Source of the DNA: a virus | Length of the DNA: 33,294 nucleotides | IMG/VR virus record: IMGVR_UViG_3300034374_009892 | Span: 1-33,294 of that record | Direction: 5' to 3' (one strand) | Shown here: positions 893 through 23,567 of the stretch, piece after piece | Position numbering within the stretch: position 1 is the stretch's first letter | Layout: each line of letters opens with the position of its first letter | Program-made: the position numbers and the translations under genes | Notes under the pieces: model-generated | What the model was told of the DNA's origin: nothing | Database searches by the model: none | Seen by the model: only the letters and a program-made list of their open reading frames with translations

Positions 893-1315
893 ATGTCACC
901 AATTGAGCTGGGCGACTATGCGGAGCAGTTGTTCGCTGCGGAAGTAATTAGAAGGGGGATGCTGGTGAGCTCGCCGATTGCGCCAGCATCTCCCTATGAT
1001 TGGGTGGTGGACAATGGTCGGGATCTGTTAAGGGTTCAGGTGAAGGCAACAAATGATCTGATGAAAGGGTCTCGTTCTCCTCGTTATCGGATTTTTACTA
1101 CTAAACGTCAGAATAATGATTCAGGCCGAACAGCTTACTCAGCTTTGGAGGTGGACTTCTTTGCCGCCTATGTCCACGGGTGGGAAACGTGGTTCATTAT
1201 ACCGTTTTGTAGCGTTAAAAGCGACCGGGTGCATTTCAGCGCAGGCAAAAGCATCGGGAAGTATGCCGAGTATAAAAACAATTGGTCTGCATTAACATCT
1301 AGGGAAAATGAGTAG
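893..1315 (+). CDS. PD-(D/E)XK endonuclease-like protein
   Basis: This 140-residue protein resembles small single-domain PD-(D/E)XK nucleases of the PDDEXK_5 / Holliday-junction-resolvase-like type. An N-terminal helix contains GDYAEQLFAAE with Glu11. It is followed by SPYDWVVD with Asp36 and by LRVQVKAT with Gln49-Val-Lys51, where Gln replaces the usual Glu of ExK. Gln at this position is tolerated in some active relatives. The start ATG has no Shine-Dalgarno sequence and sits just beyond a TATAGT -10-like box, suggesting a leaderless mRNA. The 3' end overlaps the next gene by eight bases. Possible roles are DNA processing during packaging or a mobile endonuclease; the sequence does not decide. 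Confidence 0.65.
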   Translation: MSPIELGDYAEQLFAAEVIRRGMLVSSPIAPASPYDWVVDNGRDLLRVQVKATNDLMKGSRSPRYRIFTTKRQNNDSGRTAYSALEVDFFAAYVHGWETWFIIPFCSVKSDRVHFSAGKSIGKYAEYKNNWSALTSRENE

Positions 1316-1817
1316 TCACAACGAAGAAGCCACAGTGAGGAATTGGGAAGAGCTGCTGTCAGTTATCCGGGAAACAGATGCAACTTGTCATAACAACCTC
1401 CTTAAGTGCAAGCCAGAGAGAGTGAACAGGAGGACGGTAATTCTCTACTCAGCTCTAACTCCGAAACAGAATTTCGCATACAAAGAGGTTATAAGGGAAG
1501 CCTCCCGCAAGCTTTGGCAGCATAGGGTTGCCGTTAAGTGGCGAGAATTCCCTGAGGGCGATGAGTTCTTAAAGGAGGGGCACCCGAGACCTGCCCCCTT
1601 AATTGTTGAAGATATCAAAGATTTGCCGAAAGAGGCTTACCCTTTGCAGGCGAAAATTAGGGGGTTCTACCCGAACAATCGCATCATTTTGACGGAGCTA
1701 GGCAATGCTCGTTGTAAGGATGCCCGAGCCTTCGCTATGGGGATGGAGGTGGCTGTGACAAGGGAGGGTGATTGGCTGTTCGTCAAAGGGCTGCCCAGAA
1801 ACCGGTTTAAGTATTAG
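1308..1817 (+). CDS. Unknown protein in the small-terminase position
   Basis: I do not recognise this 169-residue protein. It starts inside the last codons of the preceding nuclease and its TAG shares one base with the GTG of the large terminase, so the three genes are probably translationally coupled. The middle is basic and helical (ALTPKQNFAYKEVIREASRK), and the C-terminus ends GLPRNRFKY. No helix-turn-helix typical of TerS is obvious. Its place directly upstream of the large terminase makes a small-terminase or packaging-accessory role the first hypothesis, from synteny only. Confidence 0.6.
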   Translation: MSSHNEEATVRNWEELLSVIRETDATCHNNLLKCKPERVNRRTVILYSALTPKQNFAYKEVIREASRKLWQHRVAVKWREFPEGDEFLKEGHPRPAPLIVEDIKDLPKEAYPLQAKIRGFYPNNRIILTELGNARCKDARAFAMGMEVAVTREGDWLFVKGLPRNRFKY

Positions 1818-3853
1818 TGGCAATTCAGTGGACTAAACACCCCATCCTTAAGCTGCCTACCGCTGAGCAGGTAGAAGCTCTCGGCGTAGAGAAGGCTTTT
1901 GACTTGTGGAAGCGCCGGGAAGCCCTCATTAAGGCCGAAAAGACCGATCCGTTTAACCACGGGATGGATTGGCACAACTCAGGCGGCCACTTCCAGCATT
2001 GGAAGGCAATGGATGAGCTGTTTGAGGATCCTGATATCACTACGATCTACCTATTCGGTGGAAACAGGTGCATTGAAGGGGGTACGCCTATCTATAATCC
2101 TTTAACGGGTGAAGAGGTTGCAGTTTCAAAGATTAAAGGAACGCACAAAGTTTTAGCCAAAGGTAAGGATTCAGAGCTTGTTACTGCTGATGCGTTGGAG
2201 CCTTTTGTAAAAGGTGAGGGCTTGTTTTTGGAGGTGTTCCTTTTAGGGGGCAGATCGTTTAAGGCCACAGAGCATCACAGGGTTATGCGCCGAACGGGCA
2301 GATATATTGCTGTTTCTGAATTACGTTGCGGTGACCAGCTTTGGAATCCATTAGGATATGATATTGTGACAAACATTAGGCCGGCTGGAGCTGGCCCTGT
2401 GTGGGATTTCAGGGTGCCATTCTATGACAATTACTGGGCTTGTGGGGCGGTCCATCACAACTCAGGAAAAACTGAGTACATGGCCAAGCGCCTCGTCCAA
2501 AAGATGGCTGCTACTCCTGGTTACGCCGCTTGGGTTGGTGGCTTGTCTGGTGAGAGCAGTATTCAGGTGCAGCAACACGCCATCCACCGCTACATCCCGA
2601 AGGAATGGGCAAGGCAGAGAAGGGGTGTGCGTCAGGTTAACAATATCGCCTTCACCCCGAAGAACGGCTTTTCAAATGGTTCCTTCATCGGCCCTAACGG
2701 CTCCTCCTGCCGCTTCAAAAATTACACACAGGATGTAAAGACGCTGGAAGGTGCTAACCTGGATCTTTTCTGGGCAGATGAGCTGGTTCCGCAGACCTGG
2801 GTGGAAACAATGAAATACCGTCTGATCGACCGTAGAGGAAAGATGGTGAACTCATTTACCCCCATCGAAGGATACTCCCCAACGGTTAAGCACGCCATGG
2901 CAGGCCATGTGGTCACTAAGTGGCTTCCCTGCGACAAGCGGGTGATGCCGGAAGGCAGGATGCCATTCATTGGTCGCACTCGGTCAGGTGATGCAATCAT
3001 TTGGTTTTTCTCAGAGCACAACCCTTACATCAGTTGGGATCACTTCAAAAAGTCGGCCCTGTCTGGCAAGACATCTACTGAGAAGGAAATCCGGGCCTAC
3101 GGCTACGTCAGGAACCCGATTGTCGGCAAGTTCCCACGCTTCGGGGATGCTCACATTGTTAAGCCTGAGCAGATCCCATCCGAGGGCACCAACTATATGT
3201 GCGTTGATCCGACCGGTGGAGATCGCAACTGGTTTATGGTTTGGCTGCGGGTGGACAACCTGGGCCGAATGTTCGTCTACCGAGAATGGCCGAACTTGGC
3301 CCGATACGGCGAATGGGCGGTTCCTAGCAGCAAAGCCGATGGTTCACCGGGGTCAGCTCAAAAGGCAGACTGCGGGCGCAACCTAGCTCAATACAGAAAG
3401 CTAATCCGCGAGCTGGAGAGGGGTGAGCGGGAGCCTTTAGTGCGTTACATCGACCCGAGGGCAGGCAAAGCGCCAATCTTATCGGCCAAGGAAGGCAACT
3501 ACAGCCTGATCGATCACCTAGCCAAAGACGTGGTAGATGCCGAAGACAACCTCAGCGAGCCGGGGATGGTTTTTATTCCGGCAGCTCACACCGAAATCGA
3601 CGAAGGCGTACAGGCAATCAACAACCTGTTGTCTTACAATATGGAAGAGCCGATAACGGTTCTAAACGAGCCGAAGCTCTACATCAGCGAAGAATGCGGC
3701 AATCTGATCTACTCACTGCGAGAGTGGACAGGTGAAGACAAGGACAAGGGAGCTTGTAAAGACCCTGCCGATGCATTACGTTACTTAATCACCATGGATC
3801 CATTCCACGTCTCTCCAGGGACATCCTACGACCAAGGCGGGGGCCACTACTAG
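1817..3853 (+). CDS. terL: Terminase large subunit (ATPase-nuclease) carrying an in-frame intein
   Basis: The DNA-packaging motor cuts concatemers and pumps DNA into proheads. The 678-residue precursor starts with GTG, which overlaps the previous stop. The Walker A loop is split: GGNR is at residues 81-84 and SGKT at 216-219, with a 131-residue intein between them. Joining the flanks restores GGNRSGKT and a host protein of about 547 residues, a normal size for this family. Walker B is LDLFWADE with Asp321-Glu322. The motor-coupling region is near NSFTPIEGYSP (about 345-355). The RNase H-like nuclease domain begins around CVDPTGGD (Asp464), and its late acidic residue is in DPADALRYL (Asp652). 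Without splicing the ATPase site would be disrupted. The portal gene follows five bases later. Confidence 0.92.
   Translation: MAIQWTKHPILKLPTAEQVEALGVEKAFDLWKRREALIKAEKTDPFNHGMDWHNSGGHFQHWKAMDELFEDPDITTIYLFGGNRCIEGGTPIYNPLTGEEVAVSKIKGTHKVLAKGKDSELVTADALEPFVKGEGLFLEVFLLGGRSFKATEHHRVMRRTGRYIAVSELRCGDQLWNPLGYDIVTNIRPAGAGPVWDFRVPFYDNYWACGAVHHNSGKTEYMAKRLVQKMAATPGYAAWVGGLSGESSIQVQQHAIHRYIPKEWARQRRGVRQVNNIAFTPKNGFSNGSFIGPNGSSCRFKNYTQDVKTLEGANLDLFWADELVPQTWVETMKYRLIDRRGKMVNSFTPIEGYSPTVKHAMAGHVVTKWLPCDKRVMPEGRMPFIGRTRSGDAIIWFFSEHNPYISWDHFKKSALSGKTSTEKEIRAYGYVRNPIVGKFPRFGDAHIVKPEQIPSEGTNYMCVDPTGGDRNWFMVWLRVDNLGRMFVYREWPNLARYGEWAVPSSKADGSPGSAQKADCGRNLAQYRKLIRELERGEREPLVRYIDPRAGKAPILSAKEGNYSLIDHLAKDVVDAEDNLSEPGMVFIPAAHTEIDEGVQAINNLLSYNMEEPITVLNEPKLYISEECGNLIYSLREWTGEDKDKGACKDPADALRYLITMDPFHVSPGTSYDQGGGHY
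2069..2461 (+). other. Mini-intein in the TerL Walker A motif
   Basis: This segment encodes 131 residues. The first is Cys85 (CIEGGTPIYNP, block A) and the last is Asn215 in AVHHN (block G), with Ser216 as the +1 extein nucleophile. Block B is SFKATEHHRV with the TxxH pattern (Thr151, His154). Block F is VWDFRVPFYDNYWACG, in which Asp replaces the more common His. At this length there is no room for a homing endonuclease, so it is a minimal splicing-only intein. Its codons look more T-rich than those of the flanking exteins. The boundaries follow from the restored GGNR/SGKT P-loop. All catalytic splicing positions seem present, so it is probably active. Confidence 0.9.
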
Positions 3854-19396: not shown

Positions 19397-20565
19397 TGGC
19401 ATTCTCTCAGCAATCTTATCAGGGCCAGGGCATTGAACAGCCTCGGGAACGCAGCCGCATTGGTTTGCTGATGCAGGGTGGTATTGCCCAAGCCGGCAAC
19501 GCCATCGGCCAAGGCATTCAGAACTTCAACCGCAACAAAGCGGAAGCGAAAATGCTACGCAACTTCTACCAGACGTATGTCAAAGGTAGTGCGGATGTCG
19601 CTATGGCGAGCCCAGACGCTGACAAGGACTCCATTAAGGATACAATGAACCAAGCTCTTGCCCGTGGCGAGGAAATGGGGTTGAGCGAGCTACGTGGGTG
19701 GAAGGACAGCTTGGCGGTTATGGAGGCGAAGCGGCAAATCGAAGAGAAGATGCGCCTGCAAAACCGCCAGGACCAGCGAGCACAGAATGCAGATGTAAGA
19801 GCACAAGAAGCCCACCAACTGCAAAAGGAAACCATTGAGAAGGCAACCACGCAGGAAGAGCAGACCAACAATGTGCTGATGGCTTCCATTGAGGAGCCGA
19901 AGCCGGTTACAACGATCAATGCACCTGTTCCAGGGATGGATAAGGTGAGCGGAAGAACTGCGCCCGAGGTGCCAACGGTTGAGACCAAAACACCTTCTCG
20001 CCGCGAGATGCTGATGGATGCATTCAAAAAGAATCCAAAGGCGAGGGTTGGTGACATTCTGAAGCAGCTTGGCAGCGGTCAGCCATCGATTACGGATCAG
20101 ATTGCCGTTAAGAAATACAATGACTCTGTAACGGCGCGAACTGTTAAGGATGTCGGTTTAGCCCGAACGCCAGAAGCGGCCAAGGAGCTAATTGAATTCA
20201 AAACGACAGTTGAAGACACCAACAAGGGAGTTGATGGACTTCTTAAGATCTTAGGAACGACAGGCAAAGCTTTCTCGCCCAAGCTAAGAGCTGAAGCTGA
20301 GACACTGACAGCAATGCTGAAAGGCTCTCTTCGGCTGGCAATCGTCGGCCCTGGTGCTATGTCTGAAAGCGAGATTAAGCTCTTAGACCGAGTAGTGGCC
20401 AATCCTACCAGCTTCAAAAAGACAGACGGCCAGGTGAAAGCAGCACTCACCAAGCTGAAATCCCACTTAGCAGACCAGCTGGAGACCCGCTACAAAAACA
20501 ACATCGAAGGCTACGAAGGCCGACAAGCCCCTGACGCCATCTGGTCCGGTTACGGCTTACAATGA
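19396..20565 (+). CDS. Putative internal virion protein, second of three (coiled coil)
   Basis: The protein has 389 residues. After a Gln/Gly-rich start it has long amphipathic helices and a probable coiled coil at about 115-160 (MEAKRQIEEKMRLQNRQDQR, QAQEAHQLQKETIEKATTQEEQ). A Pro/Thr-rich linker follows, then another helical domain (EFKTTVEDTNKGVDGLLKIL, VKAALTKLKSHLADQLETRY). It corresponds in position to middle ejection proteins of short-tailed phages. It begins at a TAATG and ends at an ATGA overlap with the large ejection protein. No enzyme motif is seen. Confidence 0.62.
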   Translation: MAFSQQSYQGQGIEQPRERSRIGLLMQGGIAQAGNAIGQGIQNFNRNKAEAKMLRNFYQTYVKGSADVAMASPDADKDSIKDTMNQALARGEEMGLSELRGWKDSLAVMEAKRQIEEKMRLQNRQDQRAQNADVRAQEAHQLQKETIEKATTQEEQTNNVLMASIEEPKPVTTINAPVPGMDKVSGRTAPEVPTVETKTPSRREMLMDAFKKNPKARVGDILKQLGSGQPSITDQIAVKKYNDSVTARTVKDVGLARTPEAAKELIEFKTTVEDTNKGVDGLLKILGTTGKAFSPKLRAEAETLTAMLKGSLRLAIVGPGAMSESEIKLLDRVVANPTSFKKTDGQVKAALTKLKSHLADQLETRYKNNIEGYEGRQAPDAIWSGYGLQ

Positions 20566-23500
20566 GAATTGCCATTCCAGGCCATAACACCGTCGAAGAG
20601 TTCCCTGATGACGCCACCCCAGAGCAGATCCAGGCAACCCTAGCGGAGAAATACCCGCCAACTTCTGAGCAGATCGCAGCTAAGCTGAAGGATCCTTCCA
20701 CCCCGTGGGAAGATATCAGCTTCGAAGAGTTCCAGGCGTACCGCAAGCACTCCTCTGACATTACTCTAGAGGAAGGTGCTGGCCTGCTGTTTGATGGCTT
20801 AACCCAGGTGGCCGGTGAGATTGCTAAAGGCATTCCCGCAGCCGGCAAAGCATTGGTTAAAGGCGAGCTCCCCAAGGTTGCAGCCTCCACAGCGGAAGGC
20901 GCCGCCCGTGGCACCGTAGAGCTTGGCTCAATGGCGGCAAAGATCGCCAACAACGTCGGGGAATTCCTTGTCCCAGGCGATGACGAAGCAGCTGCTTTCT
21001 CTCGTTTCATCGGCATCAAAAAACTGGACAACGCTGTTACGGCAGCCCGATCTGGCGAAGGCAACCTTCTGGAGTCTATGTTTCTAGAGGAGGACATCGA
21101 CCAGGACTTAGCAAACGCCCTCAGCAACGTCTTAGACCCCTCTATGGCTGTCGGTGGCGGTGCTTTAGGTAGAGCGGCCACAAGAGCAGCTGGAGCCCCT
21201 GTGGCGGCTGTTGGTAAGGGCTTGGAGAGGGCTGGCGTAGCCGCAGGCCGAGCAGTGGAAGCGGTTGGCGATAAAGTTGCCTCCGTTAAGTCTGCTGTAG
21301 CCTCTAAGCTACCTGAGCAAGCAGTTGGGCCTGCTATGGCGGTAGGTGCCGCTGCTGGAGCTGGTTTGGTTGGCGGTCTTCCTACAGCAGGAGCTGCCCT
21401 CGGTGGCCTTGCTGCCCCAACCGCTGCACAACTTGCTGGTGGCGCTATCCGTGGCTTTGGCGAGTCAATGCAATCTACCCCTACTCGGATCGGAGCATTC
21501 CAACGAACAGCAGCCACAAGGCCAGGAACACTAGCCGGCCAAGCAGCAGGCCGTTTAACGTGGTTAGATGGCCCTCTGGACGCAGCTGGCAGGGTTGCCG
21601 GTGGTGCCACAGCGGGTGGGGTCACAGGAGCTGTCCTAGGCGGTTTAGCGGAAGGCCAGGAAGGCTTTTACTCTGGCATTGGTGCTGGTGCCGGCCTCGG
21701 TGCAGCTGGGGCGGGCGCTACCCGTTTAGCCGGGCAACTATCCGGCAGCAACCTGCGGCAGGCGATTAATGCCGACTGGAGCCGATGGGTGAGCACTCAG
21801 GCAGACGATGTGAGGGCCTGGGCGCAGTCTAAAGGCAGAACAGATCAGGCTAAGGCAACCATAATGGATCTCAGTGGCCTTCTGAAGGGCGTTACGGGTG
21901 AGGACGTGCGTATTGAGGTGCCGAAGGATTACGAAGCTAAATACGGGAAGACTGCGGGTGTTTTTGAGGTAGTTGGCGACAAGCCCACCATCCGGCTGCA
22001 CCCTCGTCGGTCAGATTCTGATACGTTAGCCCACGAGGCAATCCACGCCATGGCTAAGCTGGATGGCTTTGACCAGTACGTCACCGACATTAAAACGGCT
22101 TTTGGTGGCAAACAAACGCCTGACGGCCAGCAATCCGTTCCTGGTGTCTACAAAGAATCGCAACTCAACGCCATCTTTGACCGTTACCGGCAGAGATTGC
22201 CGAGGGCACAGCGGCAGACTTGGGACCGACAGCCCCGAGATGTCCAGCTGGAGGAGCTCGCGGCTGACTATTTCTCTGCCTACGTCAGGGGTCAGCATCC
22301 CAATTGGCTACTTAAAGGCTCTCGCACCAACATTCCTGGAGGCACTGCCGTTCTTAATGCTGTGGATTGGCTTACGCATCGGGGAGCAGCTGAGAAGCTG
22401 GAGCGCATCACCGGAGCACTGGAAACGCAATCCTTAGGCCAGCTGAAGCAATCCAAAGCCATCGATAAGATTGTCAACCGCATGGTGGCAGCCAGAAGGA
22501 AGGCTTACCGCTCCACTGAGACCATTTCAGACCGAGATTTCGCCAGCTACACGGTGAGCGATTTGCGGGATGATGCCACCTTCCAGCAGCTCAAAGACAT
22601 TGGAGCGGCAAAGGGAGACTCTAACGGCAGGCGCACCCTCACCAGTAACTACCAAGCGAACAAAGCTAGCAAAGAAGTGGCAGCTGATATGGCGGCCAGG
22701 TTGAATGGTGTGGAGGGTAATGGCGGCCTGGTGCAAACCGAGAGCGGTTACGCTGGCAAATGGTTCAGCCCTGAGCAGTTCTCAGCCATCTTAGATAGCG
22801 CCTTCATCAGCAACAAGGTGAAGGAGGCTCTGCAATCGCTGAACACCATTATCAATGAGGGCATCATTGCCAACATCACCTACGGTGCAGCAACCAAACG
22901 CAATAAGCAGGGGCAGGCGACTTACAGCAGCAGGATCCCGGTGAGCAACCGCGATATGATTCCTTACAAAGTGGAGCTGTCTGAGGTTGGAAATGCGGTG
23001 GTGAGAGCTTTGGATTGGTCTAAGTTGCGAACCAAAGCCGAACGCTACTTCACCAGGAGTCAACCATTTGCTGATACGTGGCAAACCTATGACTCGCTCA
23101 AAAGCGATCTGTTAGGCTACGTCAATGCGTTAGCTGCTGGTGATCGACCAACCGCAGAGCTGTTCGGGGTGCAGAAAAGGAACCTGATGAACAAGCTGCT
23201 AGGGGCTCGCAATACGAAGGGCAACCCAGAACTGCCAGCTGAGCTGAAGTTCAATGAGAAGGACAACATTTGGAAGTCTTTCAGGTTGGATCGGATCATT
23301 GACGCCAGCCCTACCAACACAAAGGCTAATTTCGATGAGGCTGCTTACCAGCGGGGGCAGCAGAACTTTAGCCCGGAGAAGCCAAACGTTCTGAAGCCTG
23401 CTAAGAAGCTTAACAAGCGGGGTGGAATGCTTTACAAGAGTGCGTCAGGTCACCGGGCTATTCAGCGATCCAAAGGCAGTAAGATTAAGCTCTACGGGCC

Positions 23501-23567
23501 GGACGGGAAGAGGGTGGGCGGCTATTTCGATAGCATTGAAGATGTAGAAAAAGTCATTGCTGGTTAG
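20562..23567 (+). CDS. Large ejection/internal virion protein with HExxH metallopeptidase motif
   Basis: This is the largest gene here, at 1001 residues. The N-terminus IPGHNTVEEFPDDATPEQIQATLAEKYP is a motif I associate with phage internal virion proteins. Two Gly/Ala-rich, membrane-compatible stretches lie near residues 255-295 and 345-385. A zincin-like domain follows: SDTLAHEAIHAMAKLDGF gives His491-Glu492-x-x-His495, and LEELAADYFSAYVRG near 564 offers a third ligand. The C-terminal 400 residues are basic and mostly helical. Such proteins enter the cell with the DNA; the peptidase could open the periplasmic path or cut a host target, which is inference. Its end overlaps the antisense membrane gene by 14 bases. 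Confidence 0.8.
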   Translation: MRIAIPGHNTVEEFPDDATPEQIQATLAEKYPPTSEQIAAKLKDPSTPWEDISFEEFQAYRKHSSDITLEEGAGLLFDGLTQVAGEIAKGIPAAGKALVKGELPKVAASTAEGAARGTVELGSMAAKIANNVGEFLVPGDDEAAAFSRFIGIKKLDNAVTAARSGEGNLLESMFLEEDIDQDLANALSNVLDPSMAVGGGALGRAATRAAGAPVAAVGKGLERAGVAAGRAVEAVGDKVASVKSAVASKLPEQAVGPAMAVGAAAGAGLVGGLPTAGAALGGLAAPTAAQLAGGAIRGFGESMQSTPTRIGAFQRTAATRPGTLAGQAAGRLTWLDGPLDAAGRVAGGATAGGVTGAVLGGLAEGQEGFYSGIGAGAGLGAAGAGATRLAGQLSGSNLRQAINADWSRWVSTQADDVRAWAQSKGRTDQAKATIMDLSGLLKGVTGEDVRIEVPKDYEAKYGKTAGVFEVVGDKPTIRLHPRRSDSDTLAHEAIHAMAKLDGFDQYVTDIKTAFGGKQTPDGQQSVPGVYKESQLNAIFDRYRQRLPRAQRQTWDRQPRDVQLEELAADYFSAYVRGQHPNWLLKGSRTNIPGGTAVLNAVDWLTHRGAAEKLERITGALETQSLGQLKQSKAIDKIVNRMVAARRKAYRSTETISDRDFASYTVSDLRDDATFQQLKDIGAAKGDSNGRRTLTSNYQANKASKEVAADMAARLNGVEGNGGLVQTESGYAGKWFSPEQFSAILDSAFISNKVKEALQSLNTIINEGIIANITYGAATKRNKQGQATYSSRIPVSNRDMIPYKVELSEVGNAVVRALDWSKLRTKAERYFTRSQPFADTWQTYDSLKSDLLGYVNALAAGDRPTAELFGVQKRNLMNKLLGARNTKGNPELPAELKFNEKDNIWKSFRLDRIIDASPTNTKANFDEAAYQRGQQNFSPEKPNVLKPAKKLNKRGGMLYKSASGHRAIQRSKGSKIKLYGPDGKRVGGYFDSIEDVEKVIAG

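Follow-up and report, generated by a model that had tools for sequence, protein, structure and literature searches.

What is the segment of 131 codons that interrupts the ATP-binding loop of the large terminase (TerL) in this virus, and how did it come to lie there? The window, by which we mean the whole analysed stretch of 33,294 nucleotides, carries the TerL gene on its plus strand (1817..3853) as one open frame of 678 codons. The N-extein (1817..2068, 84 residues, GTG start) ends in the Walker A residues GGNR, and the C-extein (2462..3853, stop codon included) starts with SGKT. The intervening codons 85-215 (2069..2461, plus strand) encode 131 residues running from CIEGG to VHHN. The gene qualifies as a large terminase, a class defined by a Walker A/B ATPase with an RNase-H-like nuclease and by a capsid-gene neighbourhood: its translation contains GGNRSGKT, once the insert is removed, and LDLFWADE, and a capsid gene of the SU10 type follows further downstream. 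Direct matches of the window TerL to terminase profiles are weak (best phrog_10250, E 0.009). A homologue is annotated as a large terminase (E 1e-6), the homologue from phage C75C1 matches the phrog_2 terminase (E 1e-15), and several other relatives match Terminase_6N or terminase PHROGs. Directly upstream of TerL, at the position of a small terminase, is a 169-aa ORF (1308..1817, plus strand) that is conserved in sister phages and gave no profile match. A gene for a papain-like (C1) cysteine protease (24-854, PF00112 E 2e-13) also stands beside the terminase genes, and the sister phages L005 and L006 have a similar ORF at the corresponding position. Elsewhere in the window, a minus-strand open frame of 392 codons (20447-21625) overlaps a 1001-aa plus-strand ORF (20562-23567) and is probably a shadow ORF.

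By inspection, the 131-residue segment has the complete motif set of a class-1 intein: C1 (2069-2071), T67xxH70 of block B (2267-2278), the block F Asp D113 (2405-2407) and H130-N131 (2456-2461), all on the plus strand, followed by the Ser+1 nucleophile of the C-extein. Intein profiles match the segment weakly and in the correct register, with E-values of 0.025 for Pfam Intein_splicing, 0.023 for TIGR01445 (intein_Nterm) and 9e-5 for NF007072 (intein-containing RecA), and phmmer aligns the Mtu RecA mini-intein to residues 1-131 (E 4e-5). The AlphaFold2 prediction, for which natural relatives served as input, has the HINT fold at a pLDDT of 95.4, and resembles the Npu and Ssp DnaB and the Mtu RecA inteins (Foldseek E ~1e-9; VIA Z 21-22 over 130 residues). 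Identical DNA occurs in three other public contigs, which makes an assembly error unlikely. Judged by motifs, profiles and fold, the segment is a class-1 cis-splicing mini-intein, predicted to excise itself, with exactly the boundaries that a sequence-only reading of this DNA had proposed. The same reading had noticed that the segment lacks an endonuclease domain and has Asp in place of the block F His, and both observations hold: the residue at the His position, -12, is D120 (2426-2428).

In terms of GxxxxGK[ST], the insertion point, GGNR^SGKT, is placed after the fourth x and before the fifth, and excision gives GGNRSGKT. Exactly this sequence stands uninterrupted in the TerL of phage C75C1. 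The C75C1 protein lacks the 131-residue segment altogether, an outcome that favours an intein over an integral part of the terminase. Spliced in silico, the TerL of locus L053 is 72% identical to it and that of the window 30%, and neither alignment is gapped where the GGNRSGKT halves join. The precursor would be unable to form its ATP site. Splicing would start with a thioester at Cys1, proceed by transfer to Ser+1 and end with cyclisation of Asn131, and in this way restore the site. We can soundly infer that packaging depends on splicing.

It had also been suggested that this dependence serves as a timing or condition-dependent switch, with slow or conditional splicing holding back the packaging ATPase until late infection. 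A blocked Walker A loop does mean that activity must wait for splicing, but none of our results supports such a role and we found no regulatory feature. Moreover, the intein-bearing and mini states are sporadic, C75C1 being free of the intein at 72% TerL identity to a bearer, and the mycobacteriophage TerL inteins that have been assayed splice quickly (PMC5050341). We consider a switch very improbable.

The 131 residues, used as a query, recovered a sister terminase, at 85% over the C-extein, in which an intein of 301 aa occupies the identical point. No endonuclease was found in the sense frame of its 170 extra residues; the opposite strand holds an ORF of 242 aa in which Pfam identifies an HNH_3 domain (E 1e-10) and PHROG an HNH (E 1.5e-23). 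In total, 135 inteins could be bounded at this Walker A position in diverse viral terminases, 44 of them minis (127-152 aa) and 91 large. Every large intein examined (211-326 aa) has an antisense HNH gene, and none has an in-frame endonuclease. The conserved H and N residues are present in the antisense HNH_3 ORFs of the relatives, as in HNH endonucleases. Among viral contigs, the HNH protein of the sister and then its profile matched 82 loci well; the HNH is antisense to a long TerL frame in all 82, and the junctions have the form GGN[RQ]^C at one end and N^S[GSTA]K[ST] at the other wherever both are on the contig. Three further matches, very weak ones (E 1e-5, L059-L061), lie elsewhere. A profile search (A2) gave no HNH relative in genome contigs, and a PDB match to the HNH profile, 8vd6, was set aside because it covers 25 residues only.

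A reciprocal search with the intein alignment does not depend on the choice of loci by HNH. It returned minis without an intact HNH and large inteins; the large ones examined all have the antisense HNH, and a sense-strand HNH was found in none of the inteins examined from this search. The antisense layout recurs, at other P-loops, in more distant relatives (L182, L183, L186 and L187). The similarity of inteins and that of their terminases are nearly uncorrelated at long distance (rank correlation 0.10), while close pairs are co-inherited. This rules out strict inheritance of the intein with its terminase at large distances, and is consistent with transfer between terminases.

Two further observations concern the P-loops of the family. 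At loci L020-L022, L062-L067 and L071-L077 the spliced loop would read GGNRSSKS, GGNRSTKS or GGNRSAKS, without the usual Gly of GK[ST]; the intein-free L014 also has GGNRSTKS. In the TerL at L112:4163-5710 the Walker A mini-intein is accompanied by a second HINT domain (residues 366-488, PT-HINT E 2e-9), so that this terminase probably contains two inteins.

The family also bears on whether the window intein is active. Asp at position -12 and the weak profile matches could be taken as signs of a HINT insert incapable of splicing, or capable of cleavage only, leaving a broken or ATPase-free TerL. However, C1, H70, D113, H130, N131 and S+1 are all kept in the window. All 54 family representatives share C1, an Asp at -19, a terminal HN and Ser or Thr at +1, whereas position -12 varies freely (H in 27, N in 11, G in 7, D in 2, others in the rest), so the window Asp is not a special sign. 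In addition, both exteins and the last 25 intein residues, the stretch of blocks F and G, are under strong purifying selection in comparison with the sister phage L006; for these 25 residues pN is 0.017 at a pS of 0.65, the pattern expected if splicing is required. We consider a non-splicing insert very improbable.

The family extends to cultured phages. In Pectobacterium phage Ymer, a 754-aa 'hypothetical protein' adjoining the portal gene reads AGFG^C...HHN^TGKS: it is a TerL whose P-loop is interrupted by an intein at the same position, and an unannotated HNH ORF (HNH_3 E 1.8e-6) runs antisense in it. TerL genes with the intein are annotated as hypothetical proteins, and their antisense HNH left unannotated, at L102:2041-4305 (OP748252.2) and L199:1041-3305 (PQ008975.1). 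The annotated layout of Taid is the same, with TerL called hypothetical and no HNH annotated; Setonix has the antisense arrangement of Ymer, and the remaining members of the group have an HNH match in common. The paper on the Ymer genus makes no mention of an intein or HNH (PMC11445585). In the named-phage collection we found no match for the family intein at L056.

In the large members, the antisense HNH lies in a fixed phase relative to the intein frame. We asked which of the two strands carries the constraint. When HNH codons were swapped for synonyms and the stops in the sense frame counted, 3-10 stops were expected across the HNH region; there are none in 26 of 26 representatives, which indicates that stops are kept out of the sense frame. 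In all 271 pairs compared, the HNH proteins are more alike than the sense protein alone would require (55.0% observed vs 49.9% expected, median z 4.4). For the sense insert, the excess over what the HNH alone would impose is slight (27.0% observed vs 26.3% expected, median z 0.6). In the model of the L018 intein, the insert, at residues 96-264 of the intein, is disordered (pLDDT ~26) between HINT halves at ~90. A folded or zinc-binding domain in the sense insert, where CxxC is frequent, was considered and rejected: its conservation is not clearly beyond what the HNH imposes, and its pLDDT is ~26. From sequence comparison, the antisense HNH is a conserved protein and the sense peptide appears to diverge as if unconstrained.

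These results bear on the rival view in which it is the sense insert that functions, the antisense HNH ORFs being shadow frames or relics in decay. Truncation of the HNH to 174 codons in one clade might be read in this way. Yet the ORFs match HNH families down to E 1e-23 and keep the conserved HNH residues, the conservation is on the antisense and not the sense strand, and the sense insert is predicted to be disordered; we regard relics as quite improbable. The simplest reading of sequences and models is an intein with a homing-endonuclease gene (HEG) on its opposite strand, the sense copy of which would be translated only as a stop-free, disordered, tolerated spacer between the HINT halves. 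Upstream of the antisense HNH ORFs, motifs score 5.6 as promoters vs 5.25 +/- 0.15 in shuffled sequence. The extended -10 motif TGTTATAAT is perfect only in L053 and L100, where it precedes the aligned HNH start by some 35-45 bases and may be an antisense promoter; it is not a general feature of the family. With a promoter signal that is at best weak on average, we do not claim expression of the antisense HNH; that it is expressed and cleaves intein-free alleles is an inference.

How, then, did the window intein come to be a mini? In the tree of splicing domains, mini and HNH-bearing states are interleaved and require at least 9-12 changes. The window intein is sister to the HNH-bearing intein of L017 (support 99/94), and the mini L106 lies near the window clade. 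Three minis (L111, L131 and L109) still carry pieces of the antisense HNH, in phase with that of the large inteins (E 1e-7 to 2e-4), and L070 and L163, with ~90% DNA identity at both ends, differ by the clean in-frame absence of ~0.55 kb. Both observations indicate that minis can arise by loss of the HEG. Because no HNH remnant was found in the window intein, the case for loss in its lineage, as against never having had the gene, is made by the tree only.

The contrary history, in which the mini is ancestral, the window intein never had an HNH and antisense HEGs were captured repeatedly, gains from the missing remnant and from the closeness of L106 to the window clade. It would have to explain why all large inteins share a homologous HNH in the same phase, why three minis contain HNH remnants, and why the window intein is sister to an HNH-bearing member; we think it unlikely. 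The sequence data are best accounted for if the window element most likely lost its antisense HNH gene. Taken together, we put a probability of roughly 0.88 on the reading that the window segment is a TerL Walker A mini-intein of a family whose large members encode an HNH homing endonuclease antisense to the intein and in a fixed phase, the HNH gene having most likely been lost here.

A free-standing nuclease ORF may nevertheless be relevant to the mobility of the window intein. The plus-strand ORF at 893..1315 is of the PDDEXK_5 (I-Ssp6803I) type: it matches PF11645 with 69.9 bits against a cut-off of 26.1 (E 3e-19), and PDB 2ost, which we take to be I-Ssp6803I, with E 1.3e-5. It gave no match in the named-phage collection. 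The ORF separates two genes that adjoin each other in sister phages, and its insertion site is 0.75 kb away from the intein; the sister phages lacking it at that site carry the antisense HNH. In collaborative homing, this nuclease would cut intein-free TerL and spread the mini-intein in trans. Its membership of a homing-nuclease family, its position, its absence from sister phages with the antisense HNH, and a weaker PDDEXK_5 ORF at a similar place near TerL in the mini locus L131 all point that way. Against this, the intergenic site where it lies may be the only homing target of the nuclease, and most other mini loci scanned have no PDDEXK_5 ORF nearby. A Pfam scan of the ORFs around 18 mini loci and the window gave two PDDEXK_5, two HNH_3 and one GIY-type (T5orf172/MUG113) match, so a general pairing of minis with free-standing nucleases, suggestive as it is, was rejected. 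A link between the PDDEXK_5 ORF and the window intein is only a possibility, and a doubtful one. Equally tentative is the wider picture of a two-strand class of mobile inteins, with the HNH made from its own antisense transcript, repeated loss of the HEG, and homing in trans by the PD-(D/E)XK nuclease in this phage.

The antisense HNH arrangement recurs at ~100 environmental loci, in several terminase families and in cultured phages. An antisense HEG would uncouple the timing and amount of the nuclease from those of an essential host protein, at the price that one DNA stretch must satisfy two strands, and the layout permits clean loss of the HEG, giving minis such as that of the window. It also has a consequence for annotation: gene callers report only one of two overlapping genes, as in Ymer and Taid. 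The cultured phages make the intein life cycle of gain, loss and reduction to a mini testable.

Inteins in phage terminases are not new, as the sequence-only reading had acknowledged: TerL Walker A inteins are established, and for several of those in mycobacteriophages splicing has been shown by experiment, the tested ones being fast (Kelley et al. 2016, PMC5050341). The mycobacteriophage TerL1-a and -b inteins share with the present family a location inside the Walker A motif of a phage TerL (PMC5050341). The site differs, TerL1-a being inserted at Lys^Thr of the P-loop and the window intein three residues earlier, at GGNR^SGKT. The TerL inteins assayed for cleavage in that study have in-frame LAGLIDADG endonucleases, in contrast to the antisense HNH described here (PMC5050341). 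With the Mtu RecA and the Ssp and Npu DnaB (mini-)inteins the window intein shares the HINT fold (Z 21-22 over 130 residues) and the catalytic residues; it differs from them in host protein, in the replacement of the block F His by Asp, and in sequence (20-28% identity).

To our knowledge, the homing endonucleases of known inteins are all fused in frame, so that the nuclease is produced along with the spliced host protein. An intein with an HNH endonuclease was reportedly described by Dalgaard et al. in 1997, with the HNH in frame within the intein and not, as here, on the opposite strand. In T4-like phages, introns spread with the help of free-standing HEGs by collaborative homing; the window resembles this arrangement in having a splicing element beside a separate nuclease gene (893-1315), the element here being an intein and not an intron. 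For an antisense HEG in an intein we found no description in the open-access literature searched, which is no proof of absence, and we consider it the new element of this family. The closest parallel is found in the nuclear group I introns Dsq.L2066 and Dir.S956-2, where a HEG likewise lies antisense within a self-splicing element (PMC9548176). Those introns are RNA elements in rDNA, and their sense strand need not stay open; in the inteins of the present family, translation has to run through the sense strand.
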